A stretch of 52,477 nt of DNA from the NCBI GenBank assembly GCA_943331445.1, contig CALQLO010000014.1:1-52477 (forward strand). The letters are read 5' to 3'. The notes under the pieces were generated by a model, which was given only the letters and a program-made list of their open reading frames with translations, ran no database searches and had not been told where the DNA came from. Position numbers and translations under genes: made by a program. Position 1 is the first letter of the stretch. Every line of letters begins with the position of its first letter. This document shows, in pieces, positions 1,860 to 36,746 of this stretch. This stretch comes from Akkermansia muciniphila (GTDB taxonomy: Bacteria > Verrucomicrobiota > Verrucomicrobiia > Opitutales > UBA953).

Positions 1860-1906
1860 GGCTTAATGCAACTCCGCCCCGGTGGGGCGTCCATCCCTAA
1901 CTCGGC

Positions 1907-2770
1907 TTAGGCCGTCAGCCAGCTGGCAGGCCGGAGGTCGCGGGTATCGAGGCCGCTGCTTGGCTGGAACCACTGCGCCGGGGTGATCACGATTTTGGCG
2001 GGATTGGGATTCAGCCAGGCCCCCCACCACGAGAAACTGCTATTCGCCGTGATATGATGCGAACAGCGGGACATGAGCAGCAAGTCTTCGAGGGCGGAAG
2101 CGGTATGCTCGGAAATGTAGCGGGTGTCCGCTGGTAGCGGCAGGTGTGCCCTCACCCAGGCGGGGTCATCGGTAAAGACGCAGACAGTCGGTGAGGCTGG
2201 GAGGCGTTGGGCTAGAATCGCCAGGGCCCGCTCATAGTAAGCAAGGGGCGTAAGGCCGTGGAACGCTTGGTTTTTTGCTTCGACGTAATCACCCCGTCGG
2301 ACGTGCAGCGAGACGGATGGGTCGGCCGGAATCAGTCGGTGGGCAAGTTGCTCGATGGCTCTGACGTGGGTGGCTGCAGGCTGGAAATCACGCCGAATTA
2401 CCTCAGCCTGCTCAGTGAAATAAAGTTCGCTCTGGAAATATCCATCAAGGGTTACGGGGGCGGATAAGGCGAAGACCGCGGGATTAAAAGGGAAGGAGGT
2501 TTCGTGGAAGTAATCACGGATGCCCAGTGTGGAGCGCACCCATCGCTTAAGGCGACCAGGAGGCCTGGGAGGTCGCCCGGCCGTGAGGGTGTGGTGATTG
2601 GGCGCGAGGGCGAAGCCCGCTAAGTCGAACGGGCGGTGGCCCCGTCGGTTAAGTCGACGAAGGTCGAGGGTAAGGCCGGCGCCTAATCGCAAGCTCAGCG
2701 CTCGGGCGGCCGCATACTGGAACATCTGATTGCCGAGGCCACCGTCGATAATGGAGGTTACCGTCGGCAT
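1907..2770 (-). CDS. family 11 glycosyltransferase, alpha-1,2-fucosyltransferase-like
   Basis: Read from the ATG at 2770 this is 287 residues. Family GT11 signatures are all present: GGLGNQMFQYA (10-20), the GDP-fucose motif HVRRGDY (156-162), FTDDPAWV (199-206) and the C-terminal TANSSFSWWGAWLN (241-254). The family transfers L-fucose from GDP-fucose in alpha-1,2 linkage, usually to galactose (H-antigen type). An upstream in-frame ATG at 2809 would lengthen it by 13 residues, but it lies inside the preceding gene. The ATG at 2770 overlaps that gene's TGA by one base, which indicates translational coupling, so I chose it. Linkage and acceptor need biochemical proof. Confidence 0.9.
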   Translation of the reverse strand: MPTVTSIIDGGLGNQMFQYAAARALSLRLGAGLTLDLRRLNRRGHRPFDLAGFALAPNHHTLTAGRPPRPPGRLKRWVRSTLGIRDYFHETSFPFNPAVFALSAPVTLDGYFQSELYFTEQAEVIRRDFQPAATHVRAIEQLAHRLIPADPSVSLHVRRGDYVEAKNQAFHGLTPLAYYERALAILAQRLPASPTVCVFTDDPAWVRAHLPLPADTRYISEHTASALEDLLLMSRCSHHITANSSFSWWGAWLNPNPAKIVITPAQWFQPSSGLDTRDLRPASWLTA

Positions 2771-3570
2771 CAGGACGCTAAATGTTTTCGAAAGACGTAG
2801 ATGCCGCAACCGTAGCCATCCCGGATTTCCGCCGTGTGCAGGTTTACGTTCTGATGCAGGTCGCCCGCGTCATCGACATAATCAAAGCGGAGTAATTCCA
2901 GACGGCATCCTCCGGTTGGCCATTCCAGGATTTCGCGCGGAGCGAAGATGCGGTGGGCATTGAAGCACACCTGGGTTTGGGCCGCAATCGGGAAGCTGAT
3001 ATAAAAAGTTCCGCCGGGCTTAAGCATGCGCAGCAGGTTCACGAATCCGCGGCGATGGCCGTCGGGCATTAAGGGATCAGTGTAACGGCCCAAGCCGAAG
3101 TGCTCAAGCGTGTGAAGGCACGAGACGGAATCCGCAATCTCCGTGGGAGCGTTTGTTTCCTGCATGAGGTCTGCCTGCAGGAAGCGGATATTCTCATGGC
3201 CCGTACCTTGTAACGGGCGGACGTCCATGATCTCGATCGGACGAAAGGCAGCTACGTGTGCCACAAAGCCATCCACGCGCGAGCCGACGTCGATGTGCCG
3301 TAAGGGCTTCGCTTGGTGAATCAGCGAGGCGACCAAGAGGTCCTGGTGAAAATAGTGACCACGGGCACTACCGGCCTGGTCGGCATAGTCGTAGAGGATG
3401 GGGAAGAGTTTATCGACCTTGCCGCCTTTGGCGATGAACTCGCGGCGATGTGAAAGATAAAGCGGAAGGTAGCGCAGTGGCTGCCGCTGACGCAGTAACT
3501 TCGAGAGTAAGCGCCAGGCGCTGGGATCAAAGCTGCATTGGAGAATATCAAGGAAGGATGTCTTGGGCAT
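2770..3570 (-). CDS. DUF268-family SAM-methyltransferase-like protein
   Basis: A 266-residue protein matching the DUF268 family found in bacterial surface-glycan clusters. The diagnostic stretches are HIDVGSRVDGFVAHVA, IEIMDVRPL, NIRFLQADLM and SCLHTLEHFGLGRYTDP. Together they form a class I methyltransferase-like fold with a SAM-binding first motif and a Leu-Glu-His-Phe fourth motif. The substrate is unknown, though a sugar O-methyl or N-methyl role is commonly assumed. The stop overlaps the GT11 start by one base. The ATG is 15 bases after the oxidoreductase stop, so all three are likely one transcript. Confidence 0.82.
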   Translation of the reverse strand: MPKTSFLDILQCSFDPSAWRLLSKLLRQRQPLRYLPLYLSHRREFIAKGGKVDKLFPILYDYADQAGSARGHYFHQDLLVASLIHQAKPLRHIDVGSRVDGFVAHVAAFRPIEIMDVRPLQGTGHENIRFLQADLMQETNAPTEIADSVSCLHTLEHFGLGRYTDPLMPDGHRRGFVNLLRMLKPGGTFYISFPIAAQTQVCFNAHRIFAPREILEWPTGGCRLELLRFDYVDDAGDLHQNVNLHTAEIRDGYGCGIYVFRKHLAS

Positions 3571-3585
3571 AGGGAAGGCAGGGGG

Positions 3586-4686
3586 TCAGATTGCTTTGCC
3601 GCCGAGCTTGGCAAGCATCGGGTCTGCCCGAAGTGGCAAGTCAACGGGTGCGCCGCTGGTCTGGGCAGATTGATAGAGCGCGAGGATAAGTTCGACGGCT
3701 TTGCGACCTTCGGCGCCGTTGACGGCGGGCCGGCGGCCGGCGCGGATCGCGGCGATGGCTTCCTCGAGATTAGCCCGATGCCACGCGTGCCCGATGGCCT
3801 TAGGATCATTGGCGCCCGCCCCGCCGCCTTCGGTCGCGGTGGCGACTTGGGCGGCGTCAGACGGCAGGGGCTTTTCGAATTCAAAAGCCGTTAGTTTGTC
3901 GTCGCGCAATACGGCCGAGCCGCTCGTGCCATGGATGCGGATCTCGGCAGGGAAGCCCGTGGCTGACCAGCAAGCGGTGGAGCCGGCGATGGTGGCGCGA
4001 CAACCGTTGGCGAATTCGATCCAGCCGGTGGCGATATCCTCGACTTCAATGCCGCCATGGGCGACGAGTCCAGCGGTGGCGGAGACGCGCTTAGGCGGTC
4101 CGAGGAACCAGAGAAGGAGGTCGATGGTGTGGATGCCTTGGTTCATCAGCGCGCCGCCACCGTCGAGGGCGAACGTGCCGCGCCAGGCGGCGGAGTCATA
4201 ATAGGCCTGGGTGCGCCACCAAGGGATGAGGGCTCCGGCGAGCGTGAGCTTACCGAAGCGACCGGCGTCGAGAGCGGCCTTGAGCGCGACCGCTCCCGAA
4301 CCGAAGCGGCGGGGTAAGATGCCGGCGACCGTCACGCCGGCCTGGGCGCAGGCAGCGGTGAGTGCGTCGCAGCGGGCGAGGGTGACCTCAAGAGGCTTCT
4401 CCACGACAACATGTTTGCCGGCCTGAGCACAGGCGAGGGCTGGAGCGAGGTGGTCACCGCTCGGCGTGCAGAGGCAGATGATATCGATGGCTGGATTCGC
4501 AAGGAGTGCCTCGGGCGTCTCGGCGAACGTGATACCGTGCTTAGTCGCGAAGTCGCGTCCCTTGGCGGGCGAACGGTTATAAGCCGCGACGAGCTTCACG
4601 CCCGGAATCTCGGCGAGCGCTTTCGCATGGAACTCGGCGATCATGCCGGTTCCCCAGATCCCGAATCCTAAGGGCCTTGCGGACAT
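3586..4686 (-). CDS. Gfo/Idh/MocA-family NAD(P)-dependent oxidoreductase
   Basis: A 366-residue protein. The N-terminal Rossmann domain carries GIWGTGMIAEFH (9-20), and the conserved Glu-Lys-Pro is at 96-98 (VVEKPLE). GIHTID (184-189) supplies the Asp/His pair expected at the active site of the second domain. Family members oxidise or reduce sugars and sugar nucleotides. In this cluster it may help make a modified nucleotide sugar, but the substrate cannot be named. It is the first gene of the minus-strand run ending in GT2. A decayed second copy of its first 35 codons lies at 5820-5924. Confidence 0.88.
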   Translation of the reverse strand: MSARPLGFGIWGTGMIAEFHAKALAEIPGVKLVAAYNRSPAKGRDFATKHGITFAETPEALLANPAIDIICLCTPSGDHLAPALACAQAGKHVVVEKPLEVTLARCDALTAACAQAGVTVAGILPRRFGSGAVALKAALDAGRFGKLTLAGALIPWWRTQAYYDSAAWRGTFALDGGGALMNQGIHTIDLLLWFLGPPKRVSATAGLVAHGGIEVEDIATGWIEFANGCRATIAGSTACWSATGFPAEIRIHGTSGSAVLRDDKLTAFEFEKPLPSDAAQVATATEGGGAGANDPKAIGHAWHRANLEEAIAAIRAGRRPAVNGAEGRKAVELILALYQSAQTSGAPVDLPLRADPMLAKLGGKAI

Positions 4687-4951
4687 GTCCGGATGTCTAG
4701 GCCAGAAGTCATGACGAGGGAAGGGCAGAATCGCTGGTTAGTCCTTGGTTCTGCGTGCGCCTGCCGCGACGAGCGCCCAGAGGGCGAGAAGGGTAGTCAG
4801 ACGTCATGCTCTGCCAGGCCAAACCGAAGGTTGCTAGCGATGGCGGGGTGGCGCGATGCGCCCGCCCCATACAAGAGGTTGGCGCCGAGACCTCGGCCAC
4901 GCTCTGAAGGCTGGTTCCGCTGAGTCCGCGGCAACCGGAGAGCCAGAACTT
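4687..4951. other. intergenic stretch with possible decayed coding sequence
   Basis: 265 bases between two minus-strand genes with no intact gene. On the minus strand a hydrophobic reading (LTTLLALWALVAAGARR followed by TKD) runs into a TAA at 4738-4740. It is cut off upstream by a TGA near 4804. A neighbouring frame upstream also reads like protein. Together they look like the frameshifted 3' end of a lost membrane-anchored protein, but the pieces are too short to identify. No promoter or terminator is evident. Confidence 0.3.
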
Positions 4952-5743
4952 CTATAAGCTACGCCAGCAGGGCGGGAGGACCGCATCCCGTCGTCCGGGG
5001 ATGTTGCTGCGGTCCAGGGCGTGCGGGAAGTCCGTCGCCGTGGACCGCCGCGTCGAGCGATCCTTCCGGTGGAAGGTAAATTCCATCAGCGGAGGAAGAT
5101 CGAAGCCCTTGTAACGGAGCACGGCCGTGGCGTTGTTGACGTGGGCATGCACGACGTCGAAGTCCTGGGTCAATTGCCCGAAGGCGAGCGCGATCTGCTG
5201 GAGCCCGAAGCGTTCGGCGATCAGTTCCAGCGAGTGGAATTCGATGACGATGGTGCGGAATCGGCGCAGGGTCGCGCGCGAGGTCGAAAGCAGCACGGGG
5301 TACTCGCCGCCCTCGATGTCCATCTGGAGGATCATGTCTGACTCTCCCGGCGCGTTGCGTCCGATCCAGGATTCAAGGGTGGTGAACACCTCGTCATCCC
5401 GTGCGCCGAGGTACTTCTTTTCGAAGCTGAAGAGGGGGTTCGACACGGGTGGCCCCTCGACCGAGTAATCGGCCATCAGGCTACGGATGCCCCGACGCGC
5501 ACAGGCTTCCTCGAAATCCGCCGTCGCGGCCACGCCAGGCGAGAAGCAGGTGCGGACTCCTTCCAGGTCGTCAGGGACGAGGTAGCCTCCGTCGGTCTCT
5601 CCGCCGATCCGGATCAGCTTGTGCTCCGTCCTCACGGGCCGAACGGAGGCCAGGAAACGTGCGATTTCCTCGCGGGAAGAGCCTTTACTCAGGCGAAGCG
5701 TGCCGGGGAGCAGGTACTGATTGATGAAGTCGCGGATTTTCAT
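4952..5743 (-). CDS. FkbM-like methyltransferase family protein
   Basis: A 263-residue protein. It opens with a helical segment, followed by LIRIGGETDGGYLVPDDLEG, then CFSPGVAATADFEEACA where FkbM-type proteins bind SAM. MDIEGGEYPVL matches the D-x-E-G-x-E element of FkbM methyltransferases, and VIEFHSL follows. The C-terminus ends FPHALDR...LPPCW, a common ending in this family, so the gene is probably intact. Family members O-methylate sugars or other small molecules. It stands alone on the minus strand between decayed DNA on both sides. The ATG at 5743 is the only good start. Confidence 0.8.
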   Translation of the reverse strand: MKIRDFINQYLLPGTLRLSKGSSREEIARFLASVRPVRTEHKLIRIGGETDGGYLVPDDLEGVRTCFSPGVAATADFEEACARRGIRSLMADYSVEGPPVSNPLFSFEKKYLGARDDEVFTTLESWIGRNAPGESDMILQMDIEGGEYPVLLSTSRATLRRFRTIVIEFHSLELIAERFGLQQIALAFGQLTQDFDVVHAHVNNATAVLRYKGFDLPPLMEFTFHRKDRSTRRSTATDFPHALDRSNIPGRRDAVLPPCWRSL

Positions 5744-5819
5744 GCGAGGTTAGCGTGTCCTGATGCAAAGGTTACGAAGGAAGGGGTCATCGGCAAGCGG
5801 CAGATTGACCCGCGCGGAT

Positions 5820-5924
5820 AGAGGCCACGAGCTTCACGCTCCAGATTTCTGCGAGCGCCCTCGCGTGGAACTCGGCGATCATGCCGGTTCCCCAGATGCC
5901 AAAACCTAGGGGCCGTTGGGACAT
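5820..5924 (-). pseudogene. 5' fragment of a second Gfo/Idh/MocA oxidoreductase gene
   Basis: Reading from the ATG at 5924, 35 codons align without gaps to the start of the oxidoreductase at 3586-4686. Thirty of the 35 residues are identical, including GFGIWGTGMIAEFH. Similarity ends abruptly near 5820, and no downstream part of the gene is present. It is therefore a truncated paralogue, left by a duplication followed by deletion or by gene replacement. The rest of 5744-6031 holds no other recognisable gene. Confidence 0.85.
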
Positions 5925-6031
5925 AGGGGAGGTTATGTGGGAAACGCGGATGAGGGAAAGGATGAACCTAATCGCCCCCGCCCTTTCAGTCGTCTATTTA
6001 CAATCACCCATGGTCGGACAGGTTTGGTGTC

Positions 6032-6769
6032 ATGCGGTTACTCCACTCGCTTCGCGGTCGTTGCCTCATGTTAATGCGAATATGCGGATATCAGGGCGAC
6101 GCCCTTTTTTTTGGGGTGCGGTTCCCGGTCCGGCTCGCGCCGTCACCAACGATTATCAGACATCTTGACGCCCAGCGTTACGAGCGTGCCGAGACCTTGC
6201 TTGTCCGGCAGTTTCTGCCCCCAGGTGCGACGGTCCTAGAGTTAGGGGGAAGTCTGGGTATCGTTTCCTCGGTGATTCTTGGTGGTCGGCCGCTCAGACT
6301 CGTGACCTACGAGGCCGTACCAGCTTTCGCGGTGATTGGCCGTCAGGTAGTCGCTCACAACTTTCCTTCAGCGGATTATGTCTGCATCAACGAGGCCGTC
6401 GGTCCAGTTGACGTGCCCGAAGTTACCTTCCATTGGTCGCCGGATCAATCCTTGGCCGGCTCGGCTGGCACGGCCTCCAGTGAAGGGCTTGGGCTTATCC
6501 GCGTCCCGGCCGTCGACCTGGCGTCAGCGGTCGCGCGCCACGGAATCGCCCCGGGCGCCTGGCTGGTCGCTGACATCGAAGGCATGGAGTTCGAACTGCT
6601 TCTTAATCAGTCCGGCGCATTCGCCCCGTTCGCAGGAGTAATCATGGAGTGCCACGATGGCGAATACGCCGGCCGCCATCGCGATCAGCGGGAGGTTGAG
6701 ACGATGCTGGCTTCAGTGGGCTTCCGGTTACTTAGACGGATAGGCCCTGTTATCTGCATGGCACGATAA
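6032..6769 (+). CDS. FkbM-family methyltransferase
   Basis: A 245-residue protein. The SAM-binding segment ATVLELGGSLGIVSS (residues 66-80) is followed by TYEAVPAF at the end of strand 2. The FkbM hallmark AVDLASAV...LVADIEGMEFELL sits near residues 170-195, and GVIMECHDGEY follows. The family methylates hydroxyl groups, often on sugars. The exact start is uncertain because further in-frame ATGs occur in the first 15 codons and none has a clear ribosome-binding site. It is the only plus-strand gene between two minus-strand genes and ends convergently with the GT25 gene at 6795. Confidence 0.82.
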   Translation: MRLLHSLRGRCLMLMRICGYQGDALFFGVRFPVRLAPSPTIIRHLDAQRYERAETLLVRQFLPPGATVLELGGSLGIVSSVILGGRPLRLVTYEAVPAFAVIGRQVVAHNFPSADYVCINEAVGPVDVPEVTFHWSPDQSLAGSAGTASSEGLGLIRVPAVDLASAVARHGIAPGAWLVADIEGMEFELLLNQSGAFAPFAGVIMECHDGEYAGRHRDQREVETMLASVGFRLLRRIGPVICMAR

Positions 6770-6794
6770 GCCAAAAGGGGAGCGGCCAAAGGCC

Positions 6795-7574
6795 TTATTT
6801 CCTGCGCAGGTTTTCCACCTTCTTGAAGCGCAATCCGAGCCGCCCGAGCACACCTTGGTCGTGCCAGGTGCGCCGGACGCTTAGCCAGGCGCGCCGGATT
6901 TCTCGCCCAATCTTGGCGGGAAAACTTACCGTGGGTTTAAGGCGGTCGCCGATCAGTGAGTTCGCGTCATCCCGATGGGAGGCCAAGGAGGGCTCACAGT
7001 GAAGGAGGGTGACGCCGTGCTCCCATTCCAGGTTCATGAAGTCATCGACGGCACACCAGAAGCGGGAGGATTTTTCTAAGAGCGCACGAGCTGCTTCAGG
7101 TGTAATCAGATAGGCCACCGCGCCAGTTCCTGGGACGGTGGGCCGACCTAGGCAGGCTTCCCCCTCCAGCTCAGCCCAGCGCCGGAATGGCCTAGAGGGT
7201 AGGCTATAGACTTTCGCCACCCAAGGCCGTCCGGTGATTTTCTCCGCCGCGAGGTGGATCGAGGGAAGATTCGTTGATGCAAGATGGGCGTCGTCTTCCA
7301 GAATAAGGAAGCAGCCGCTCGTGGCTTCGGCTACTTTTTGCCAGGCACCCCGGTGGGCAAGGAAGCAGCCCATTTCCCCTTTGCGTAAAGGGTAGCCATA
7401 GAATTGGAGACGCCGGTGCTCATCGTAAACATCGCCGATGTCACCTGCTTCGCCGATGAAGATCGCCGGGGATAGCGTAAAGCGAAGGTTGAGCTGGCCG
7501 AGTCGGGCCACCGCGGTCGCATGCCTCGGTGAGCCTGCGTGGCTGATCAGAATAATGTGCGTCTCGGCGCCCAT
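6795..7574 (-). CDS. family 25 glycosyltransferase (LPS-type)
   Basis: 259 residues from the ATG at 7574; a TTG two codons upstream is also open. GT25 features are HIILISHAGS at the N-terminus, LRKGEMGCFLAHRGAW (the family's G-E-x-G-C-x-x-S/A-H element) and FLILEDDAHL, where the acidic EDD binds the metal-nucleotide donor. GTGAVAYLITPEAA and DDFM match the later conserved blocks. GT25 enzymes transfer galactose or related sugars to lipopolysaccharide or other glycans. It is clearly diverged from the two plus-strand GT25 copies at 7730 and 10426 and lacks their HWWE motif. Confidence 0.85.
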   Translation of the reverse strand: MGAETHIILISHAGSPRHATAVARLGQLNLRFTLSPAIFIGEAGDIGDVYDEHRRLQFYGYPLRKGEMGCFLAHRGAWQKVAEATSGCFLILEDDAHLASTNLPSIHLAAEKITGRPWVAKVYSLPSRPFRRWAELEGEACLGRPTVPGTGAVAYLITPEAARALLEKSSRFWCAVDDFMNLEWEHGVTLLHCEPSLASHRDDANSLIGDRLKPTVSFPAKIGREIRRAWLSVRRTWHDQGVLGRLGLRFKKVENLRRK

Positions 7575-7729
7575 ATCCAATCGATGTCTCTAGCGGGCGC
7601 GCTGTGCAATCGATAAACCCCCGCGAGTAGCCCATGCGAGGGTGCGACGTCGGCTAACTTAGGTAGAAATGCCTATCCTAAAATCTTGTGAAACAATGAA
7701 ACAAAATATAACCAAGACCCCCCGAACGC
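7575..7729. promoter_or_regulatory. divergent intergenic region between two GT25 genes
   Basis: 155 bases between divergent starts. The right-hand half (about 7660-7720) is AT-rich compared with its surroundings and includes TCCTAAAATC, which could hold a -10 element for the gene at 7730. No matching -35 box or operator is convincing. It is reported because both flanking genes must begin transcription here. Confidence 0.35.
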
Positions 7730-8485
7730 ATGTGTCCGATTCTCGTGATAAATCTCGATGCCTCGAGGGCGCGCATGACTGCAGCCGACCAAAAACTGCA
7801 GGCCTGTGGTCAAGGATATGAGCGCTTGGCGGCCGTGAACGGTCGCGCGTTGCCAGCGGAGGAGCTGGCAGGCGTGGTCTCGGCGGACCGAGCTGATTTC
7901 TTTAAACTCCTCTCAGCTGGGGAGGTCGGATGTTATCTCAGCCACCTCCGGGCGTTGGAGCGAATGGTGCGCGAGGGATGGCCTCGCATGGTGGTCTTGG
8001 AGGATGATTTTCAATTAAAGCCGGACTTCCTGCCAGCCATGGAGGCGCTCTTGGCCGTGCCAGGTGAACCGCCCCATCTTATCAAGTTAGAGGGCACACT
8101 CTCTGGCGGCGATGTCGTCACCCGATTGGCCACAGGGCACAAAGTGGTCCGGCATCGCCGCCCGCCGATCAATGCGACGGCCTTGCTTTGGTCGCTGGAG
8201 GGAGCCCGTCGATTCCTCGCCCAATCTAGCAAGCTCCGTCGTCCGGTCGACGTACAGATGAAGCATTGGTGGGAGGGCGATCTCGACGTGCTGGCCATTA
8301 CGCCCGCCATTGTCGGGCTAGACCCAGAACTCTCGAAGGAGTCCACTATTGGAGCCCGCCGACCCGTCGGTTTCTCCGGCCTCATCCGGCGGTTGGGGTA
8401 TCGGGTAAGTTATTCGCTGGCCAGCCACTGGCATTGCCTCCGCAAATTTGGCTTTGGCGGCTGGCGCCGGGCGACCTTCGGCTGA
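7730..8485 (+). CDS. family 25 glycosyltransferase, intact copy of a paralogous pair
   Basis: A 251-residue protein. CPILVINLD opens the fold, FFKLLSAGEVGCYLSHLRAL (57-76) is the GT25 conserved block and MVVLEDDF (87-94) gives the metal-binding acidic residues. WSLEGARRFL (154-163) and KHWWEGDLD (178-186) follow. It aligns from end to end with the amber-interrupted gene at 10426, so this copy is presumably the working one. Such enzymes add hexoses to LPS or exopolysaccharide; the sugar is not determined. It is flanked by genes on the opposite strand and has its own upstream region. Confidence 0.87.
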   Translation: MCPILVINLDASRARMTAADQKLQACGQGYERLAAVNGRALPAEELAGVVSADRADFFKLLSAGEVGCYLSHLRALERMVREGWPRMVVLEDDFQLKPDFLPAMEALLAVPGEPPHLIKLEGTLSGGDVVTRLATGHKVVRHRRPPINATALLWSLEGARRFLAQSSKLRRPVDVQMKHWWEGDLDVLAITPAIVGLDPELSKESTIGARRPVGFSGLIRRLGYRVSYSLASHWHCLRKFGFGGWRRATFG

Positions 8486-8500
8486 GCCTATACGGTGCGA

Positions 8501-9298
8501 CTACTCCAGCACCAGTAGGGCGTTGTTCCGCGTGCTCTTGACGAGGCGGTAGCCACAACCGCGCAGGATGCCGGCCATGACGTCGCTGTCGTGTAAGTGC
8601 TCCATGCAGATGCGTTTCGGCCAGCGTGAACGCGGAGCGGCGCGGAAGAAGGGCTCGAGGGCGGCGCGCTCGAAGCCTTCGACGTCGATTTTCAGCGCAT
8701 CAATCGTCTGCAAGCCGGCGTCATCCAGGATGCTGAGTAACTGGCGCACGGCGAAGTCCCCATGAGCATCGTCGCGGACGATGTGCGCGATGGCGAGGTC
8801 GTTGCGGAGCACGACGAGTTTGGCCTTGCCGTCGAAATCGCCGACGCCGACATCGAAGACCCGGGAGGTGTCGAGGCCGTTGAGTTCGAGATTATGGCGC
8901 AGGCGGGCCACACAAACAGGGTTGGGCTCGATGGAGACGACGCGGCCTCCCGGCTTGAGGAAGTTACCGAGTGCAACCGAATACAGGCCAATGTTGGCGC
9001 CGACATCGACGAACGTGCCACCAGGGCCCGTGCCCGCCTTCAGAAAATCAATCTCTTCTTGATTGTAGCACGGGTGAATGAGCAGGGCACTGTCGACGAG
9101 GTTAGTCGTGGGGTAGACTCGGAAGCGTCCGAAGACCGACTCGACATCGACCGGTCCGGAGCGAAGGGCGTTGAGTAACTTAACCCAGAGGGGGCGAAGT
9201 GAGCCGCGGTAAAGCGGGGGAATCCGAATCACGCCGAGGGCGATACGTTGCAATAGGGAGGCGCGGAGCTCTCCGAAGGCGGGGGCGGCGGGGGTCAT
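8501..9298 (-). CDS. FkbM-family methyltransferase
   Basis: 265 residues from the ATG at 9298. The open frame runs upstream to 9565, but that part overlaps the next gene and reads as low-complexity non-protein, so I reject it. FVDVGANIGLYS (96-107) is the textbook FkbM SAM-binding motif, followed by VVSIEPNPVCVARLRHN. IDALKIDVEGFERAAL is the FkbM D-x-E-G-x-E element. MEHLHDSD precedes a C-terminal strand. The role is probably O-methylation of a sugar. It lies 61 bases after the GT10 gene on the same strand and may share its transcript. Confidence 0.88.
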   Translation of the reverse strand: MTPAAPAFGELRASLLQRIALGVIRIPPLYRGSLRPLWVKLLNALRSGPVDVESVFGRFRVYPTTNLVDSALLIHPCYNQEEIDFLKAGTGPGGTFVDVGANIGLYSVALGNFLKPGGRVVSIEPNPVCVARLRHNLELNGLDTSRVFDVGVGDFDGKAKLVVLRNDLAIAHIVRDDAHGDFAVRQLLSILDDAGLQTIDALKIDVEGFERAALEPFFRAAPRSRWPKRICMEHLHDSDVMAGILRGCGYRLVKSTRNNALLVLE

Positions 9299-9359
9299 GA
9301 CGGTTAGCGGCAGTCTCTTCTCACCGGGTTTATTTTCAATCAGAATAACCTGCGCAAAA

Positions 9360-10325
9360 TCAACGCACGCCCATCTTCCAGAGCATCCCGTCAAGACGAC
9401 AGCATAGGCTCGCGAGCCGTTGCTGGAGTGGCGACGCATAGGCGTGCTCGCGTAGCGTGCGATGCCGATAGTGCCGGGCGCTCGGCTTGATGCCTGCATC
9501 AAGCAGGGCAAGGAGCGGGTTGATGAGATAATCGTCCGAGAGGCAGGTCGGTTCACGATTATCACGAAATGGTGGCGTCGAGAGCAGTGCGAGGCGAGCC
9601 TGGGGGTCGGCGTCGACGGCCAGAATGTGTTCGATGGCGGCGGCTTCCGTCGCGAAGTTGGAAACGTTAATCATGCAGCCGGGATTGAATTCGCGGCCAA
9701 TATCCGGAGCCCCCCAGTAAATGGGAATGGTGCCGGCGAGTAGCGGCTCGACGAGTTTCTCGGTCACACACCCTGGTGAGCTGGTATTCTCGAAGGCTAG
9801 GTTGAAGCGGAAGCTCCGGAGGAATGACATTTTATCCGCTAAGGGCTTATTCGTCGTATTGAAATGTCGGCCCGCGGAGACGAGCGGTCGGCGGCGGTGG
9901 AGCGCCCGGAAGAAGCGATTACGGTCGGGGCCGCGGGGATTGCTGGCGACAAAGCAGGCGAACTCGGCGCGATCAAGTAAGGGGCGGGCGTCGTAGTTGG
10001 CCGGGCGGATGAGCGAACCAAGTTCTGGCAGCACCTGTGCATAGTAAGGGAAACGGACGGCCCGGGGGTCGCCCGCGAGCTCGACCGGCGTGTAGGCAAG
10101 GTCACACTGCTCGAAGTCAGGCAACATGTTCTCGCCGGTAACATAGACCTTCAGGCCTTTGAAATCCCAGTGGCGTTCGCCAAAATCGGAGTAGATCAGT
10201 AAATCCGCCGTAGCGAAGTCCGCTCGCACTACCTCACGGTGCAAGGACAGCAGCCGGAAGATGCGTTCCACGGTCGGGCTAGAGCCGCTAGCCCAGTCCG
10301 AGAATGCAATGCGAAGCGGTACCAT
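9360..10325 (-). CDS. family 10 glycosyltransferase, alpha-1,3/1,4-fucosyltransferase-like
   Basis: A 321-residue protein. The C-terminal half has the GT10 signature: FNLAFENTSSPGCVTEKLVE (174-193), then PIYWGAP (201-207) and FNPGCMINVSNF (213-224). The same blocks bind GDP-fucose in Helicobacter and vertebrate alpha-1,3-fucosyltransferases. The N-terminal acceptor domain begins with LRIAFSDW. Such enzymes make Lewis-type structures by adding fucose to N-acetylglucosamine or glucose. The C-terminus shows none of the heptad repeats seen in Helicobacter enzymes. The start at 10325 is the first ATG, 100 bases from the divergent GT25 pseudogene. Confidence 0.9.
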   Translation of the reverse strand: MVPLRIAFSDWASGSSPTVERIFRLLSLHREVVRADFATADLLIYSDFGERHWDFKGLKVYVTGENMLPDFEQCDLAYTPVELAGDPRAVRFPYYAQVLPELGSLIRPANYDARPLLDRAEFACFVASNPRGPDRNRFFRALHRRRPLVSAGRHFNTTNKPLADKMSFLRSFRFNLAFENTSSPGCVTEKLVEPLLAGTIPIYWGAPDIGREFNPGCMINVSNFATEAAAIEHILAVDADPQARLALLSTPPFRDNREPTCLSDDYLINPLLALLDAGIKPSARHYRHRTLREHAYASPLQQRLASLCCRLDGMLWKMGVR

Positions 10326-10425
10326 GAATGCGACCTCAAGATGTCCGTGGGCGACGGGTTGGCAAACAAATCAGGCTTCGGTCTGGTCTGGCGTCCGACG
10401 AGCGCGCGGCTCAACATCCACGGTC

Positions 10426-11211
10426 ATGAGTGTCAGTCCGAGTGAGCTGCATCGCCCTTGCCCGATCTTGGTGATCAATCTCGCTGGTTCGACCGTGCGT
10501 TGGCAGAAGGTTTCGGCGGCACTGGAGGCGGTGGGATTAACTTTTGAACGGCATGAGGCATCGGATGGCCGCCTTTTATCAGCGACGGAAATCGCCCAAC
10601 TTGCGCCATGGAATCCAGCAGCGTTCTTTAAGCCTCTCTCGCCTGGGGAAGTTGGGTGCTGCCTCAGTCACGTGTCTGTAGCCGAGCGGATTATCCGCGA
10701 AGGATGGGAGCGCACATTAGTCCTCGAAGACGACTTTCTCTTGGCGGATAATTTCGTCGCACGGCTGAAAGATTTGCTGGCCGTGCCCGGCCCGCCCGCC
10801 GATCTGATTAAAATCGAGGGAGCATTACGCGGAGGCGAAAGAGTGGCGGAGACTCCCGGAGGTCAGCAACTCTACCGCCATCGGCGTCCGCCTTCCCGCA
10901 CCGCCGCCCAACTCTAGTCTCTGGAAGGTGCCCGTAAATTCCTGGCCAGCGCCCAGCCTTTTCTACGGCCTGTGGACGTGCACCTGAAGCACTGGTGGGA
11001 ACATGACCTAGAGATTCTCTATGTCCGGCCTTCACTTGTCGTGGATGGCGACGCCACGGGAGTTACCTCAACGATTGGGGCCCGGCCTGCCAGTGGACTG
11101 GGCGGCGCACTCCGTCGACTGCGCTACAAGGCCAGCTTCGCTTTCGCCAGCCAGTGGCATTACTTGAGGCGGTATGGGCTGGTGTCGTGGTGCCGGCAGC
11201 TGCTCGGCTGA
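10426..11211 (+). pseudogene. family 25 glycosyltransferase gene interrupted by an in-frame amber codon
   Basis: From ATG 10426 the frame reads CPILVINLAGS, FFKPLSPGEVGCCLSHVSV and TLVLEDDF, then stops at TAG 10915-10917 (codon 164). The same frame continues SLEGARKFLA, KHWWEHDLEI and STIGARP to a TGA ending at 11211. The stop lies exactly at the position of Trp154 in the intact paralogue at 7730, offset by the 10 extra N-terminal residues, with no gap between. A single TGG-to-TAG change explains it. Otherwise both halves look undamaged, so the mutation is recent, suppressed, or a sequencing error. The gene ends 4 bases from the dnaE stop. Confidence 0.88.
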
Positions 11212-11215
11212 GGAC

Positions 11216-14200
11216 TCAAGCGCGCGGGCCATACTTGCGCTGGGGTGCCTGGGTCGGGGCCACGGGCTCAATCTGCACGCCCGCGCAGGCTGGATGCCGA
11301 CCGAACTCGCCGTAGCTTTCGGTATCAAAGCGGGTCGTCATGCCACGAGAAGCTTCCGCTACGAGGACGCGTCCGTCGGGTTGGATGATCCCGATCTGGA
11401 CGATGGTGGGGCCATCGACCTTGCGGGTGTGGGCGACGATTTTCTCCATGAAGTCGCCCGCGTCCGCGCCAGGCTTGAGCGCGAAGAGGATCTTCTTGAT
11501 GAGGGTCGGGGCGCGACGGAGAGGGGTAATGGCGTGGGCGCTCAGCGACCATTCGCCTCGTTCTTCTCGGAAGTTAAGGCGGGCATCAACGATGACGTGT
11601 GAGCCATCCATGAGTAGCGGCAACTCCCCGTCTTTAAGCAGAGCGGCGGCCTCATAGGCTTCCGAGAACATCATCACGGGGATGGTGACAGAGCGGGAGG
11701 CGACGGTGAAGAGTGCCCAGGGGCGATTATCTTTCTTGGAAATCTTCTTCTCGAGGCCGGCGACAATGCCGCAGACGCGCACGGTGTGGCGTTCTTTCTT
11801 ATCGAGCTCGATGCGGTCCGGCGTGACGGTGAGGGTGGCGACGGCTTCGTCGAGGCCGTGGTAATCAGCGAGTGGATGGCCGCTGAGATAGAAGCCAAGG
11901 AGGGCCTTCTCGCTGTTGAGCATCTCGAGCTTGGGCATCTTCTCCGACTTGCGCAGAATCATGTCGGTGGGCCGGGCCGCCCCGGCATCTTCCGCGCCGA
12001 GCATGTCGAAGAGCGAGCCTTGTCCGCTGGCACGTTCCTTGCGTTCGCCTGCGAAGTGGCGGCGGACAGATTCAATGGAGTCGACGAGATGTCGGCGATC
12101 TTCGCTCGTGAAGTCGAAGCCGCCGGCACGGACCAGGCAGTCCAGGGTGCGGGAATTGAGATCGAATTCGCCCATGCGGCCCACGAAATCGGCAAAATCT
12201 TTAAAGGGCCCATTCTTTTCGCGCTCCGCCACGATGTTGCGGGCGGCCTGTTCGCCGACGCCCTTGATGGCGCCGAGGCCGAAGCGGATGGCGTTATCCT
12301 TGATGACCGGGGTGAAGTCGGTGTCAGACTGGTTTACATCCGGCCCGAGCGCCTTCATGCCGAGGGCTTCGACTTCCGCCATGAATTCGGCGAGTTTGTC
12401 GGCATTACCTTGCTCGGAGGTGAGCACGGCCGACATGAACTCGACCGGGTAGTTGGCCTTCAGGTAAGCCGTGCGGTACGAGAGAATGGCGTAGGCGGCG
12501 GAGTGTGACTTATTGAAGCCGTACTCGGCGAACTTCTCCAGGGTCGCGAAGATTTCCTCCGCTTTCTTCTTATCGATGTTATTGGTCGTCTTGGCGCCCT
12601 CGACGAAGATGGAACGCTGCTGCTCCATCTCCTCACGGATCTTCTTGCCCATCGCCCGGCGGAGCATGTCGGCGCCGCCGAGGGTGTAGCCAGCCACCAC
12701 GCGGGCGGCTTCCATCACCTGTTCCTGGTAGACCAAGATGCCGTAAGTCTCTTTGGCGACCTTCTCGAGGAGCGGGTGGGCATATTTGACGAAGTTAGGA
12801 TCATCCTTCCCCTTGATGTAGTCGCCGATGAACTGCATCGGGCCAGGTCGGTAAAGGGCGATCAGCGCGACAATCTCATCGATGGCTGAAATATGGAACT
12901 TACGGCAGAGCGATTGCATGCCGCCCGATTCAAGCTGGAACACGCCGACAGTCTTGGCTTCATTGAGCAGGGCAAAGGTCGCGACATCCTCGAAGCCGAC
13001 TTTCTCAATATTGAACTCGGTTTTCCCGCGGTGCTTGCGCACGAGCTTCTGGGCGTCGTCGATGATGGTGAGCGTCTTCAGGCCCAGGAAGTCCATCTTA
13101 AGTAGGCCGAGTTTCTCGACGGGGTCCTTGGCGTATTGGGTCGTCAGGTCGCCTTCCTGCATCGTCACGGGGATGATATCGGTGAGCGGCCGGTCGGCGA
13201 TAATCATGCCGCACGCATGCTTACCAGAGTTACGGACCATACCCTCGATGACTCGGCCGGTCTCGATGATGCTCGCAGCCTGCGGATTAATGGCGACCTC
13301 CTCGCGGAGCTCGTTGGATTTTTTCAGGGCGTCTTCGAGCGAAATATTAATGTCATCCGGGACGAGTTTAGCGAGGCGGTTGGTCTCGACGAACGGTAGG
13401 TCGCGGATGCGGGCAAGGTCGCGGACGACCATCTTGGCTCCGAAGGTGCCGAAGGTGATGATGTTCGCGACGCGGTCTTCGCCGTATTTTTTGCGGACGT
13501 AGCCAACGACCTCGTCGCGACGGCGCATGCAGAAGTCGATATCGAAGTCGGGCGCAGAGACGCGTTCCGGGTTTAGGAAGCGTTCGAAGAGTAGGCCGAA
13601 GCGAATGGGATCGATGTCCGTGATCTTGAGGCAGTACGCCACGATTGAGCCGGCGCCCGAACCGCGGCCGGGGCCGACGGGGATGTCATGACGTCGAGAC
13701 CAGTCGATGAAGTCCCAGACGATGAGGAAGTAGTCGACGAAGCCCGTGCCGGCGATGACGCCCATCTCATAGTCGACGCGTCGGCAGAGCTCGGCGGGGC
13801 TGGTCTTCCCAGGGCCGGGAATCTTCTCGTCCTTCCAGGCCTTGGGGGAGTCGTAGTCGACGCCGTAGCGCTCCAGTAACCCCAGTTTCACTTGATCGAG
13901 CAAATAGGAACCATTCGCGCGCATGGCTTTACGCTTTTCTGCTTCGATGACGAAGTCGCCGGCTTTACCCGCCGAGACCATGAGGCCGTTCTTGAGTTTC
14001 TCGTAGCCGTCCAAGATCTCATCAATCTTGTCGTCGGCCTTGGGCTTCACGCCCTCGCTGAAGATGTAGACGGGGTAGTTATTTTGCCCGACGGGTAGCT
14101 TCACGTCGCACATCTCTGCGATGTCGACGGTGTTCTTAATCGCTGCGGGGACTTCGCTGAAGACGCGCAGCATCTCAGCCTCACTCTTTAGGTAGAACTC

Positions 14201-14962
14201 CGTGGCGGAGTAGCGCATGCGGCGCTCATCGGCTAGGCGGGCGCCGGTCTGAATGCACAGCATGGCGTCGTGGGCCACAGAGTCGCTAGCATCGACGTAG
14301 TGCACGTCGTTCGTGGCGACGACGCGGAGTTGGAATTCCGTGGCGAGTTTGAGGAGGTCGGCGATGATGCGCTTCTGTTCCTCCAGGCCGTGGTCCATGA
14401 GCTCGATGACGAAGTTCTCGCGGCCGAAGATTTCGACGAATTTGCCACAGGCTTTGCGGGCAGCTTCATAGTCGCCCCGGAGGAGCGCCTGCGGGATGAC
14501 GCCCTGGAGGCAGCCGGAGAAGCCGATCAAGCCATCCGCATGCTTGGCCAGCTGCTCGAGGTCGGTGCGCGGTTTGTAGTGCAGGCCACGCACGTGCGCG
14601 TCGGAGACCAGTTTGGTGAGGTTCTGGTAGCCTTTGAAATTCCGGGCGAGCACGCCCATATGGAAATACTTATGCTCTCGGCGGTCCGGCTTATCGGTGA
14701 GCGCGTGATCCCAGACGAGGTAGAGTTCGCAACCGAGCAGCGGCTTGAGCTTCACATCGCCCTTGGAGCGTTGCTTGGCCTCGTTCCAAAAATCGAAGAG
14801 GCCGAAGAGGTTGCCGTGGTCCGTGATGGCCACCGCCCGCATATTCATATCGCAGGCGCGCTCCATCAAGCGGTCGATGCGGCTACAGCCGTCGAGCATG
14901 CTGTAGTCGGTGTGCACATGCAGATGCACGAAGTCTCGACTGATGTTTGCGGGGTCGGCCAT
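11216..14962 (-). CDS. dnaE: DNA polymerase III alpha subunit
   Basis: The 1248-residue replicative polymerase catalytic subunit. The N-terminal PHP domain starts [15 protein letters not shown] and continues with [10 protein letters not shown], so the histidines thought to bind metal in active PHP domains are kept. The catalytic aspartates sit in PDFDIDF (471-477), preceded by [21 protein letters not shown] and the HACGMII block fit the fingers and palm. After a tandem helix-hairpin-helix region come an OB fold ([15 protein letters not shown]) and a C-terminal domain. It is somewhat longer than the E. coli enzyme. The ATG at 14962 has no strong ribosome-binding site. Confidence 0.97.
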
Positions 14963-15089
14963 GCGGAGGCCGATAATAGGGAGGGGCTCGCGGTCAGGGG
15001 AAGGGCATAATCGGCGGGGTTATTCGCGGTCGGGCGGGAAGGGTGGGCTTGCCTGCCTCTGGGGCGGTGCCCAATGATTGGATATTCCC

Positions 15090-16079: not shown

Positions 16080-16088
16080 GCGCCGCGC

Positions 16089-17276: not shown

Positions 17277-17322
17277 GCCATCACTCTCCCCGAAGACGGG
17301 GAAGGGGGAAGACAAAATGATA

Positions 17323-17378
17323 GGGGTTGGGGTGGGGGTAGGGGTTGGGGTAGGAAAGAGGGGTGCAAAAGTGCAAAG
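17323..17378 (+). repeat. G-quadruplex tract plus tandem GTGCAAA motif (left copy)
   Basis: Five runs of four or five G (17323-17326, 17329-17332, 17334-17338, 17341-17344, 17347-17350) are separated by one or two bases, an ideal quadruplex-forming pattern on the plus strand. GGTGCAAAAGTGCAAAG follows at 17362-17378. Both modules recur inverted at 17559-17618. They lie in the 370-base gap between tyrS and the M20 gene, which holds no gene. Confidence 0.8.
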
Positions 17379-17395
17379 TGGCTTACCGCCTCTAA

Positions 17396-17512
17396 GGTAG
17401 GGACATGATCACTATCGCCTCCTATGGTGGGCCGCCCTGCGGCGGCCGAGGACAGCACGTGGTGCTGTCCCTACCTCGAGACCGCGGCTGACCAAGGGTG
17501 GTCAGCCCTACC
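17396..17512 (+). repeat. REP-like cluster: hairpins followed by CTACC
   Basis: Two hairpins have different stem sequences but the same tail. GGACAGCAC pairs with GTGCTGTCC (17450-17470) and GGCTGACC pairs with GGTCAGCC (17486-17507); each is followed directly by CTACC. A third hairpin, GGCCGCC with GGCGGCC, is at 17430-17447. The block opens with AAGGTAGGGACATGAT (17394-17409), whose exact reverse complement occurs at 52222-52237. The preserved pairing and tail suggest a dispersed repeat family. Confidence 0.75.
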
Positions 17513-17558
17513 TCCCGACGGCTAAGACCCGAGACCCGAATTCCGGAATATTTTCCTA

Positions 17559-17618
17559 CCCCTGCCCCTACCCCTACCCCCACCCCCAACTTACATCCCA
17601 CCTTTGCACGTTTGCACC
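17559..17618 (-). repeat. G-quadruplex tract plus tandem GTGCAAA motif (right, inverted copy)
   Basis: C-runs at 17559-17562, 17565-17568, 17571-17574, 17577-17581 and 17583-17587 give a quadruplex-capable G-strand on the minus strand. CTTTGCACGTTTGCACC at 17602-17618 is the reverse complement of the left copy's 17-base motif with one mismatch. The order of the two modules differs from a simple inverted repeat, so this is a mosaic. It ends about 30 bases before the M20 gene start. Confidence 0.78.
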
Positions 17619-17646
17619 GTCCGCCATTCCCTCCTTACTTCCTGCC

Positions 17647-19032
17647 ATGGATCTTGTCCGTGAACTGATCGACTACGTTAAGCACCCCAGCGTCTCCACC
17701 GACCCGGCCTTCAAGGCAGGCATGGATGGAGCCCGCGAGCATATCTGTGGTTTGCTGAAGCAGGCCGGCCTCGAAGTCGAAGTCGTGCCGACGCCCTTGC
17801 ACCCGATCGTCCTCGGCCGTCGGCGCGGCCCGAAGGAATGGCCCCACATCGTGTTATATGGTCATTATGATGTGCAGCCCGCCGACCCGCTGAATCTCTG
17901 GACGACGCCCGCTTTTGAGCCCGTCGTGCGCGACGGTAAAATCTGGGGACGTGGCACCGCGGATAACAAGGGACCGCACCTCGTCGCGGTCGCTGCCCTC
18001 ACGCGTTTGCTCAAGCGCCGGCCTGACCTCCCGTTGCGCATCACCTTCCTGATTGAGGGCGAAGAGGAAATCGGCTCCCCGAGTTTCCCGGAGTTCTTGC
18101 ATAATCATAAGGCCGAGCTCGCCGAGGCGGATTGCGTCCTCCTCTCCGATACCGCATCGCCATCGGCCGATCAGATTGTCATCACGACTGGCTTGCGCGG
18201 CATTATTGGCCTCGAGGTTGGCCTCACCGGCCCGCGTTCGGACCTGCATTCCGGCCTGCATGGCGGTGCCGTTTATAATCCAATCCAGGCCTTGGCGGAA
18301 CTTTGCGCCTCACTGCATGATGCGGATAACGCCGTGGCCATTGATGGATTCTATGATGGCGTGGAACAGCCGACCCGCTGGGAGCGGGAGGAGTTGCGCA
18401 AGTTGCCACTCTCGGAGGACGAATACCGCCGCTTCCTAGCCGTGGACGAATTGCACCCCGCTCCGGGTCTGGATGGACTCGAGGCGGTACGCTTCGCCCC
18501 CACTTTGGAATTCAATGGCATCGGCGGTGGCTACCAAGGCAAAGGCTCCAAGACCGTCATTCCCTCCAAGGTCTTCGCAAAGATTACCTGTCGGCTCGTG
18601 CCGGGGCAGGATCCTGTCGACGTACACACCAAGGTCGCCGCGGCCATTCGCGCGCGTTCACCGAAAGGGGTCCGGGCAGAGATTATCGAGATGCAGGGTA
18701 ATGCGGCTTACTATGTCTGCCCACCTGATCGTCCGAATACGCCCAAGGATCAGAATCCGGTGCTCGCCCGGGCTTTCCGCGAGGCTGACAAAGCCATCGC
18801 CGAAGCCTTTGGCAAAGCCCCGCTTTATCTCCGCGAAGGTGGCAGCGTGCCCATCATCGGCGATATCCGCCGCGAGACGGGTTTAGACTCCGTGATGATT
18901 GGCTTGTTTACCCCCGATTCAAACCTGCATGCCCCTGACGAGAACTTCGAACTCCGCATGGCTGAGCGGGCGGTGAACGCCTACGAGAAGGTCCTGGAAC
19001 GACTGGCGGGTACCGACCGCGGCCCGCGTTGA
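17647..19032 (+). CDS. M20-family metallopeptidase (dipeptidase)
   Basis: A 461-residue two-zinc peptidase. The expected ligands are visible: His73 and Asp75 in YGHYDVQPAD, the bridging Asp106 in GTADNKGP, the catalytic and metal Glu pair in IEGEEEIGS (136-144), Asp168 in LLSDTA, and a C-terminal His in NLHAPDENFE. The inserted dimerisation domain starts near the DLHSGLHGG segment, which supplies the second His typical of the family. It resembles carnosinase-like and general dipeptidases of the M20 group, and cytoplasmic peptide recycling is the likely role. There is no signal peptide. Confidence 0.92.
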   Translation: MDLVRELIDYVKHPSVSTDPAFKAGMDGAREHICGLLKQAGLEVEVVPTPLHPIVLGRRRGPKEWPHIVLYGHYDVQPADPLNLWTTPAFEPVVRDGKIWGRGTADNKGPHLVAVAALTRLLKRRPDLPLRITFLIEGEEEIGSPSFPEFLHNHKAELAEADCVLLSDTASPSADQIVITTGLRGIIGLEVGLTGPRSDLHSGLHGGAVYNPIQALAELCASLHDADNAVAIDGFYDGVEQPTRWEREELRKLPLSEDEYRRFLAVDELHPAPGLDGLEAVRFAPTLEFNGIGGGYQGKGSKTVIPSKVFAKITCRLVPGQDPVDVHTKVAAAIRARSPKGVRAEIIEMQGNAAYYVCPPDRPNTPKDQNPVLARAFREADKAIAEAFGKAPLYLREGGSVPIIGDIRRETGLDSVMIGLFTPDSNLHAPDENFELRMAERAVNAYEKVLERLAGTDRGPR

Positions 19033-19038
19033 GTCGGC

Positions 19039-19857
19039 TTAGTCCTCTGCCCGCATGGCTGAGTGGTCTTTGTCTAAGGCTAAAATGAGTGAGGGAAATT
19101 CGGACCGGGTCTTTTCCGCCATACAGTAGCCTGGATCAAGAATGGTGAGCGGTCCGGGTTGCCTCGCCAGGAGCGCGTTCCAGTGCGACTCATCGTGCCA
19201 GATGGCGATGATGCCGTTGGCGAGATCGGCCTCAATTCGCCGGGCGCATTCGGCGGAGGCCGCGAGATAGGCTGCGGCGGTGCCGCCCTGAAAGCCGCCG
19301 GCGTAATAGTTCACCCCTTGGTCAGGCGGAATGCAGGCACGGCTTTCGGGGCGCGTCTCGTAGGTGTAGTCTCGCCGCTTTTTTTGGTAAAAACGGCAAT
19401 GACGTACGGCGGTAAGGCCAGCGCCCAGAATCTCGTCTCCGACCTCGGCGACGAAGCGCATATCGCAATCTGAATAAAAAATATAGTCATACCCCGAAAG
19501 GTCCGGCACCTGGCTGAAGAACCGATAGCGCAACAGGGTCATCATCGGCCAGGCCTCATGTTCGATGTGCTTCAGTCGGATGGCGCCCCTGGCACGTCCG
19601 TTGCGCCGTGCGACGAGCGCGAGGCAATCCGGTGTCTGGTCGAGATTGGTGAATAGGATCACCTCATAATGATCCCCAGGGAGGAAGTGCCGGTCGGTCG
19701 ATTCCAGGAGTGGCTCCACCAACTTGAAATATTTGTTGGTCGCCACCACCAGGAGGACAACCCGGCGCGGCGCCAGGGTTTTCTTACGACCCATTTTCTG
19801 GAGCCCTCGGGCGATTCTGCGGAGCAGTCGGGAGATGGCAAAGATGAGTCGCCGCAT
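19039..19857 (-). CDS. family 6 glycosyltransferase (histo-blood-group ABO transferase family)
   Basis: 272 residues from the ATG at 19857; a GTG at 19878 is an alternative start. The order of motifs matches GT6 throughout: [16 protein letters not shown] (39-54), FYSDCDMRF (127-135), [13 protein letters not shown] (165-177), [10 protein letters not shown] (183-192) and [15 protein letters not shown] (213-227). DCD at 130-132 sits where mammalian enzymes have the metal-binding DVD. Family members add galactose or N-acetylgalactosamine alpha-1,3 to galactose, often needing an alpha-1,2-fucose on the acceptor. The gene lies alone between housekeeping genes, convergent with the M20 gene and 8 kb from the fucosyltransferases. 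Donor and acceptor are not known. Confidence 0.9.
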
Positions 19858-33544: not shown

Positions 33545-33566
33545 ACCTTTCGAACCTTTCATTCCA

Positions 33567-35594: not shown

Positions 35595-35630
35595 GCCCCT
35601 CTTCCTTAAAACCTCTCAACTCTGACCTCC

Positions 35631-36299: not shown

Positions 36300-36314
36300 T
36301 CCTGATTTACGACC

Positions 36315-36656: not shown

Positions 36657-36678
36657 GCGACCCGACGACTTAACGACC

Positions 36679-36702
36679 AAGGCTCCGCGAGGGGCCTTTT
36701 TT
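36679..36702 (+). terminator. intrinsic terminator of the cta operon
   Basis: AAGGCTCC (36679-36686) pairs with GGGGCCTT (36691-36698) around a GCGA loop, with one G-T pair, followed by a T-run to 36702. It lies 22 bases after ctaF and separates it from ctaG. Confidence 0.88.
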
Positions 36703-36746
36703 GTGCCCGCACTTGCGAAGGGGCGCGGTTGGAATAATAAGAAGGG

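Follow-up and report, generated by a model that had tools for sequence, protein, structure and literature searches.

Several microbial systems are known that carry the enzyme families behind blood-group sugars, and they provide the closest comparisons for a stretch of 52,477 nucleotides from Akkermansia muciniphila (contig CALQLO010000014.1 of GenBank assembly GCA_943331445.1; hereafter the window), which carries genes for a glycosyltransferase family 11 (GT11) fucosyltransferase, a GT10 fucosyltransferase and a GT6 glycosyltransferase. The Lewis-antigen lipopolysaccharide (LPS) of Helicobacter pylori (FutA/B, FutC, HP0826) resembles the locus in two respects: among chains of the Protein Data Bank (PDB) the GT10 of the window aligns best with H. 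pylori FucT, and its GT10, GT11 and GT25 genes share an island, HP0826 being a member of GT25. The genome setting of the H. pylori system differs, and its gene list as given in PMC12342981 contains no A/B-type transferase. According to PMC4202792, the α-1,2-fucosyltransferase WbwK (GT11) and WbnI (GT6) make the B-like antigen of the Escherichia coli O86 O-antigen; the window holds the same GT11 and GT6 pair, whereas its GT6 has a DXD motif instead of the NXN described there for bacterial GT6, lies outside the sugar cluster and is accompanied by GT10. Helicobacter mustelae BgtA and Bacteroides ovatus BoGT6a belong to GT6 as does the window enzyme, whose structural model matches BoGT6a chains; BoGT6a is described as a metal-independent NXN enzyme (PMC3961637), whereas the window GT6 keeps DXD. 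In the same paper the GT6 of Parachlamydia acanthamoebae, which is likened here by description only, is one of two bacterial GT6s with DXD that had been described by 2014. Prochlorococcus phage P-SSM2 carries a cassette in which GT11 (PSSM2_265), GT6 (PSSM2_268) and GT25 (PSSM2_271) genes lie close together, and its DXD-type GT6 is 42% identical to that of the window; this cassette differs in being viral and in showing no GT10 match in the phage stretch examined with a seven-sequence profile. Among the literature matches listed, the titles and abstract openings include no paper describing GT6, GT10 and GT11 together in one locus.

The window is the entire contig (C14) of a 2.4 Mb draft genome of 83 contigs with a completeness of 94.8%, in which each of the three families has a single match at E ≤ 0.001. 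The preliminary description had reported all three families with complete motifs, and this is borne out, as every gene is intact, over its Pfam cut-offs and equipped with its family motifs. It had also placed the genes together, which holds in so far as they lie within about 17.1 kb, a spacing that three random points on a genome-sized circle reached in 55 of 400,000 trials; with one match per family, chance closeness was rejected on these grounds. The GT6 gene does not belong to the GT10/GT11 cluster, being located at a swap site of its own, and the presence of a phage-type GT6 in a swap site of a cellular genome is regarded here as the more interesting fact of the analysis.

The GT6 gene is open and full length (PF03414, Glyco_transf_6, 123.6 bits, over the Pfam cut-off), with the DXD motif in SDCDM and the conserved WHDES nucleophile motif in WHDESH. 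Its AlphaFold model, with a predicted local distance difference test (pLDDT) score of 91, is predicted to adopt the GT6-family fold, human GTA/GTB and BoGT6a (chains 4ayj and 4cj8) being the best Foldseek matches; in PDB scores the human ABO chains (115 bits) exceed BoGT6a (100 bits). The ten best matches of this GT6 in all DNA compared are viral and 38-43% identical, followed by the bacterial loci L004 (39%) and L005 (36%); the nearest relatives come from marine cyanophages, including the isolated P-SSM2, and from other viral contigs. In the alignment, DXD is found in 26/29 viral rows and 4/39 bacterial rows (the window, L004, L005 and the congener G027), shares that describe the compared set and not all GT6, because the viral and outside-phylum bacterial loci were chosen by likeness to the window GT6 or by the Pfam model. 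The viral set comprises 31 loci and 29 tree rows, in which the near-identical L156/L157, L158/L159 and L141/L145 were each counted singly; contigs from IMG/VR are predicted viral sequences and no isolates, and among 71 phage records that matched GT6, 7 stretches were compared. The outside-phylum set consists of 27 GT6 genomes, 26 of which were aligned after removal of L017, where a stop breaks the frame; NXN is present in 24 of these and DXD in two (L004 and L005).

By its motif, SDCDM standing in place of NXN, the window GT6 falls outside the NXN clade of the BoGT6a type, and it lies on what appears to be a DXD-type branch of mostly viral genes. When the DXD columns were omitted, the motif label required three changes over 69 rows, and the five nearest rows by path were all viral. 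The sister of the window GT6 is L154 (support 97/80), which is long-branched, in a tree whose bootstrap had not settled. The fragments L074 (that of G081, which reads DAD), L169 and L171 were left out of the final 69-row tree; L074 was omitted from the GT6 trees, one of which was also made without the long branches L003 and L014. The human sequence lies on a long branch and its place is therefore unsure. Since L004 is placed amid viral rows, the contig that carries it may be viral as well. GT11 is present in 19/31 viral GT6 loci, and on the viral contigs L163 (1199-4708) and L164 (1801-4657) GT11, a weak GT10 match and a fusion of an FkbM methyltransferase to GT6 lie close together on one strand, the GT6 part being of the NXN type. 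Four viral GT10 matches in all were found, each weak and barely over the Pfam cut-off.

The GT6 gene occupies a second swap site, separate from the GT10/GT11 island. Between GT10 and GT6 lie four core-type genes (dnaE, an SRPBCC-like gene, tyrS and an M20 peptidase gene), and GT6 is followed by accD and by folC-like and rluA-like genes; a single operon of the three enzymes was rejected, as these core-type genes split them. accD was sought in 33 relatives, including 22 congeners, and both M20 and accD were seen in 14 congeners. Measured to the codon matching position 20030 of the window, the M20-accD gap is 117-142 bases and empty in 11 of these, about 1.1 kb in three (G004, G006 and G007), and 997 bases with GT6 in the window. 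Because a GT2-type gene fills it in the three congeners (by Pfam on L105 and L111, and by eye for L106 from its likeness to L105), the gap looks like a one-gene swap site. A recent arrival of GT6 from a genome of other base composition was rejected, as its G+C of 0.59 matches that of its neighbours, and plasmid carriage was rejected as well, with just 2 distant matches in 72,556 plasmid records.

GT11 and GT10 belong to an island next to dnaE (795-10917; Table 1) whose content differs between strains; its other genes encode one GT2 and three GT25 enzymes, three FkbM-like proteins, a DUF268 protein and an oxidoreductase of the Gfo/Idh/MocA family. The several methyltransferases noted alongside in the preliminary description are thus present, as the DUF268 gene together with the FkbM-like ones; of the latter, two have weak matches that stay under the NCBIfam cut-off. 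GT11 is open and full length (Glyco_transf_11, 95.4 bits; cut-off 23.9), shows the motifs GGLGNQMFQYA, HVRRGD and NSSFSWW, and begins with an ATG at 2770 that overlaps the stop codon (TGA) of the DUF268 gene upstream. Neither NCBIfam nor a PDB sequence search gave a match to GT11; its AlphaFold model (pLDDT 86) points to a fucosyltransferase fold, with NodZ, AtFUT1, FUT8 and also POFUT1 as best Foldseek matches (E 8e-9 to about 1e-5, with modest TM-scores of about 0.5-0.6). The linkage does not follow from the family, since HhFT2 of H. hepaticus is described as a GT11 enzyme that makes Lewis x, an α-1,3 product (PMC4202792). GT10 is likewise open, full length and over the Pfam cut-offs (Glyco_transf_10, 52.4 bits; FucT_N, 57.9 bits) with no NCBIfam match, and has the motifs TGEN and FENT..VTEK. 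Its best PDB chain is H. pylori FucT (2nzw, E 6e-31), with TGEN and VTEK aligned; these two motifs contain the catalytic glutamates, given as Glu95 and Glu249 in PMC4202792, with positions counted on the 2nzw alignment.

Comparison with congeners revealed how far the island varies. The Gfo/Idh/MocA gene is conserved beside variable sugar genes (83-91% identical in G019, G012, G030 and G001), and dnaE is the neighbour in G019, G016 and G030 as well. In G019 and G030 the space between the two is filled by different mixtures of GT2, GT25, GT10, GT11 or GT11-like and FkbM genes, and partial contigs of G016 and G001 resemble the island of G019 and G030, GT25 being called there by likeness to the genes of the window. 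Relatives of GT11 are 71% identical in G019 and 99% identical, in partial form, in G002, and those of GT10 are 61-64% identical in G019, G030, G001 and G016. An independent acquisition of each of the three genes in a region rich in turnover of sugar genes, with insertion hotspots bringing them close and no common pathway, would fit the island content varying among G019, G030, G001 and G016 and the different distribution of each family across the genus. We nevertheless consider this reading improbable: the gene order DUF268-GT11-GT2 is retained in G019, GT10 and GT11 are again close together in G019, G046 and G045, and GT6 is associated with GT11 across phyla.

Some island relatives have features of their own. 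Near a contig end of G046 (L084, 10551-12834), GT10, a GT25-like gene (by 26% similarity only) and GT11 stand in a row as a Lewis-like set. Beside a dnaE piece of G016 (L097, 1082-4951) a 1289-aa protein carries GT10 at its C-terminal end, its residues 1-970 having no Pfam match. Proteins of 475 aa (L098, 6151-7578; no Pfam match) and 481 aa (L101, 4417-5862) resemble GT11 weakly, scoring 45 and 42 bits with an in-house profile.

The idea that the three enzymes act on the same glycan, which the preliminary description had put forward, has gained support, mostly through relatives. In a phylum sample of 387 genomes, GT6 occurs in 13 (12 over the Pfam cut-off and the fragment of G081); GT11 is present in all 13 and in 60/374 others (Fisher p 1.5e-10), and GT10 in 11/13 and 50/374 (p 4e-8), p-values that ignore kinship; as 10 of the 13 genomes are from one genus, the set reduces to four lineages, each of them with GT11. 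In 12/13 genomes the gap from GT6 to the nearest GT11 is 59-2,193 bases. Outside the phylum sample, GT11 is found in 25 of the 27 GT6 genomes and GT10 in 14, each of the 14 also having GT11; 11 of these 14 form one clade of the GT6 tree, and the GT10 match of another (L013) is weak. A triple set unique to the window was rejected, because these 14 genomes also hold all three families. On account of the counts in both samples, GT6 and GT11 appear to be near-obligate partners, and it is likely that they share one glycan.

Within the genus, the survey covered 37 genomes (that of the window and 36 congeners, several of them incomplete). GT10 was found in 28 congeners, GT11 in five and GT6 in one, and the window genome is the only one with all three families; the congener G156, which belongs to the phylum sample, has GT10 and neither GT11 nor GT6. 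GT6 is thus restricted to 2/37 genomes, the other being G027 (75% complete), whose GT6 is 28% identical. In g50, a genus of the same class, three large fused genes of G165 follow one another and contain GT11, GT6 and GT10, and G117 is judged similar by likeness. The loci L094 (2214-13867) and L100 (4851-16482) of this genus contain a row of giant genes: the GT10 proteins are 977 aa (969 in L100) and 1075 aa long with one short open reading frame (ORF) between them, GT6 is part of a 786-aa protein, and a 756-aa protein has Galactosyl_T, methyltransferase and GT11 domains, those of L100 being called by similarity only.

Several observations weigh against a common pathway or against the assignment of the GT6 enzyme to it. 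The association counts are uncorrected for kinship, most of the GT6 genomes in the phylum sample coming from a single genus and the GT6 fragment of G081 under the Pfam cut-off. The window GT6 is 16.6 kb from GT11 and the only one of the 13 not close to it. Outside the phylum sample, two genomes (those of L017 and L029) have no GT11, and GT11 is in the flanks examined of 12/27 loci and missing there in 15/27; a GT10 was found in none of these 27 flanks by the profile built from 7 sequences of this analysis, which may miss distant GT10s and was also used for the viral scans. In the 75%-complete genome of G027 GT11 was not detected. With NCBIfam NF041524 (family 6 glucosyltransferase) the window GT6 stays under the cut-off (156.4 against 250 bits), and it has Arg at the position of human 235, where GTA/GTB have Gly/Ser and many viral relatives Gly. 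As to fucose supply, 5/28 congeners with GT10 have no gmd over the cut-off, including G001 (96% complete, two GT10 matches), as does one of the five with GT11 (G022, 75% complete). The same-glycan proposal is accordingly sustained for GT11 and GT6 by their association elsewhere and weakened in this genome by the separate site of GT6, its rarity in the genus and the case of G027. An alternative in which the acceptor of GT6 differs from that of GT11 and GT10, so that the enzyme of the one-gene slot caps another glycan with α-galactose or N-acetylgalactosamine (GalNAc) and does not require fucose, would agree with the separate and distant locus, with the GT2-type genes in the slot of G004, G006 and G007, with the GT6 of G027 and with the unusual Arg; we judge it unlikely, in view of GT11 being nearly always present in GT6 genomes and in 19 of the viral GT6 loci.

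Regarding the supply of GDP-fucose, for which a search had been suggested in the preliminary description, two adjacent genes on contig C11 match gmd with 566 bits, over the cut-off of 415, and fcl with 467 bits, slightly short of the cut-off of 500 and over nearly the full length. They are followed there by kdsB, a KpsF/KdsD-type isomerase gene and a gene for a Wzy_C-like protein, whose match to the O-antigen ligase domain is slightly under the Pfam cut-off; galE, over its cut-off, is on C35 and cut by the contig end, and an LptF/LptG gene lies within the window. As the GDP-fucose genes stand beside genes for Kdo (3-deoxy-D-manno-oct-2-ulosonic acid), LPS is suggested as the target of the glycan. 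A gmd gene over the cut-off is missing in 10/36 congeners.

PMC4202792 names positions 235, 266 and 268 as donor-determining in the human ABO transferases. At the equivalents of 266 and 268 the window GT6 has Ala and Gly, which provide enough space for GalNAc, and Arg at the equivalent of 235 may mean an altered active site; with this combination the specificity is not callable as A or B. The DXD motif implies metal dependence, as with the Parachlamydia DXD enzyme, which was found to be metal-dependent (PMC3961637), and the window GT6 is thus probably metal-dependent. The proposed order, GT11, GT6, GT10, follows from findings reported in PMC12723683, where Lewis b was not used as acceptor by two bacterial GT6 enzymes, whereas α-1,3/4-fucosyltransferases accepted finished A and B antigens. 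The fusion of an FkbM methyltransferase to GT6 in L163 and L164 suggests, by analogy, that the glycan may be O-methylated.

Taken together, the preferred explanation, in which our confidence is evenly poised, is that a Gram-negative bacterium has a surface-sugar system varying from strain to strain, in which an H-like, A/B-like and Lewis-like cap with a phage-type GT6 would form a switchable coat. GT11 would add fucose to a terminal galactose (H-like), GT6 would then transfer GalNAc or galactose to the same galactose (A- or B-like), and GT10, probably last, would add a second fucose on the neighbouring N-acetylglucosamine (Lewis-like). The acceptor would probably be the outer LPS, which the GT25 and GT2 enzymes encoded in the island may assemble, and GT6 may have inserted on its own at the M20-accD gap. 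The likely gain would be a switchable surface, for example against phages, rather than the copying of an animal host. Host mimicry, to which the preliminary description had pointed, is not supported, because an operon for cytochrome c oxidase lies in the window and the closest relatives of its GT6 are viral, those of marine cyanophages among them. A cap that hides the cell from the immune system or lectins of an animal would have parallels in the like enzyme kinds of the H. pylori, H. mustelae and E. coli O86 systems (PMC12342981, PMC4202792) and in the consecutive large genes of g50, a genus of the same class; against the oxidase operon and the viral kinship of GT6, we hold this mimicry to be very improbable.

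A wider proposal, offered tentatively and with less than even confidence, is that bacteria and phages trade a set for A/B-type surface switching (GT11 with a DXD GT6 that depends on metal, in some cases joined by GT10 and an FkbM methyltransferase), the window GT6 being a phage-type gene that the cell now uses to change its coat; the main role of ABO-type enzymes would then lie in the conflict between phages and their hosts, and the DXD enzymes of vertebrates may trace to that branch. If these readings are true, the H-then-A/B pathway would recur as a module in bacteria and viruses far outside the setting of animal hosts, and GT6 would be nearly bound to GT11. A DXD GT6 of a cell, near GT11 and GT10, would moreover offer a testable case of a blood-group-like surface sugar shaped by phages, and would provide a bacterial enzyme for comparison with the human ABO transferases.

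Table 1. Features of the window, with positions in the 52,477-nucleotide stretch.
Feature	Position	Strand	Domain match or remark
GT2 glycosyltransferase, follows GT11	795..1859	-	PF00535, 119 bits; GT11 partner in G019 69% identical
GT11 fucosyltransferase (α-1,2 type by family)	1907..2770	-	PF01531
DUF268/methyltransferase-like gene	2770..3570	-	PF03269, 42 bits
Gfo/Idh/MocA oxidoreductase	3586..4686	-	PF01408, 93 bits
FkbM-like methyltransferase, weak match	4952..5743	-	PF05050, 28 bits
FkbM-like methyltransferase, weak match	6032..6769	+	PF05050, 24 bits
GT25 glycosyltransferase	6795..7580	-	PF01755, 56 bits
GT25 glycosyltransferase	7730..8485	+	PF01755, 65 bits
FkbM methyltransferase, start approximate	8501..9340	-	PF05050, 55 bits; TIGR01444, 82 bits
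GT10 fucosyltransferase, Helicobacter pylori FucT type	9360..10325	-	FucT_N and Glyco_transf_10
GT25 glycosyltransferase, short, start approximate	10456..10917	+	PF01755, 60 bits, inside ORF 10261-10917
dnaE, core gene at island edge	11216..14962	-	same neighbour in G019, G016 and G030
M20 peptidase, left border of GT6 site	17647..19032	+	
GT6 glycosyltransferase with DXD motif, phage-type	19039..19857	-	PF03414
accD, right border of GT6 site	20003..20875	+	ATG seen
Cytochrome c oxidase operon	32264-37529		COX2 with cytochrome c domain, COX1, COX3, COX4-like (under Pfam cut-off), CtaG

Elsewhere in the window, a 633-aa protein with one PEGA domain is encoded at 29018-30919, where the strongest AT skew of the window (-0.30) is located.

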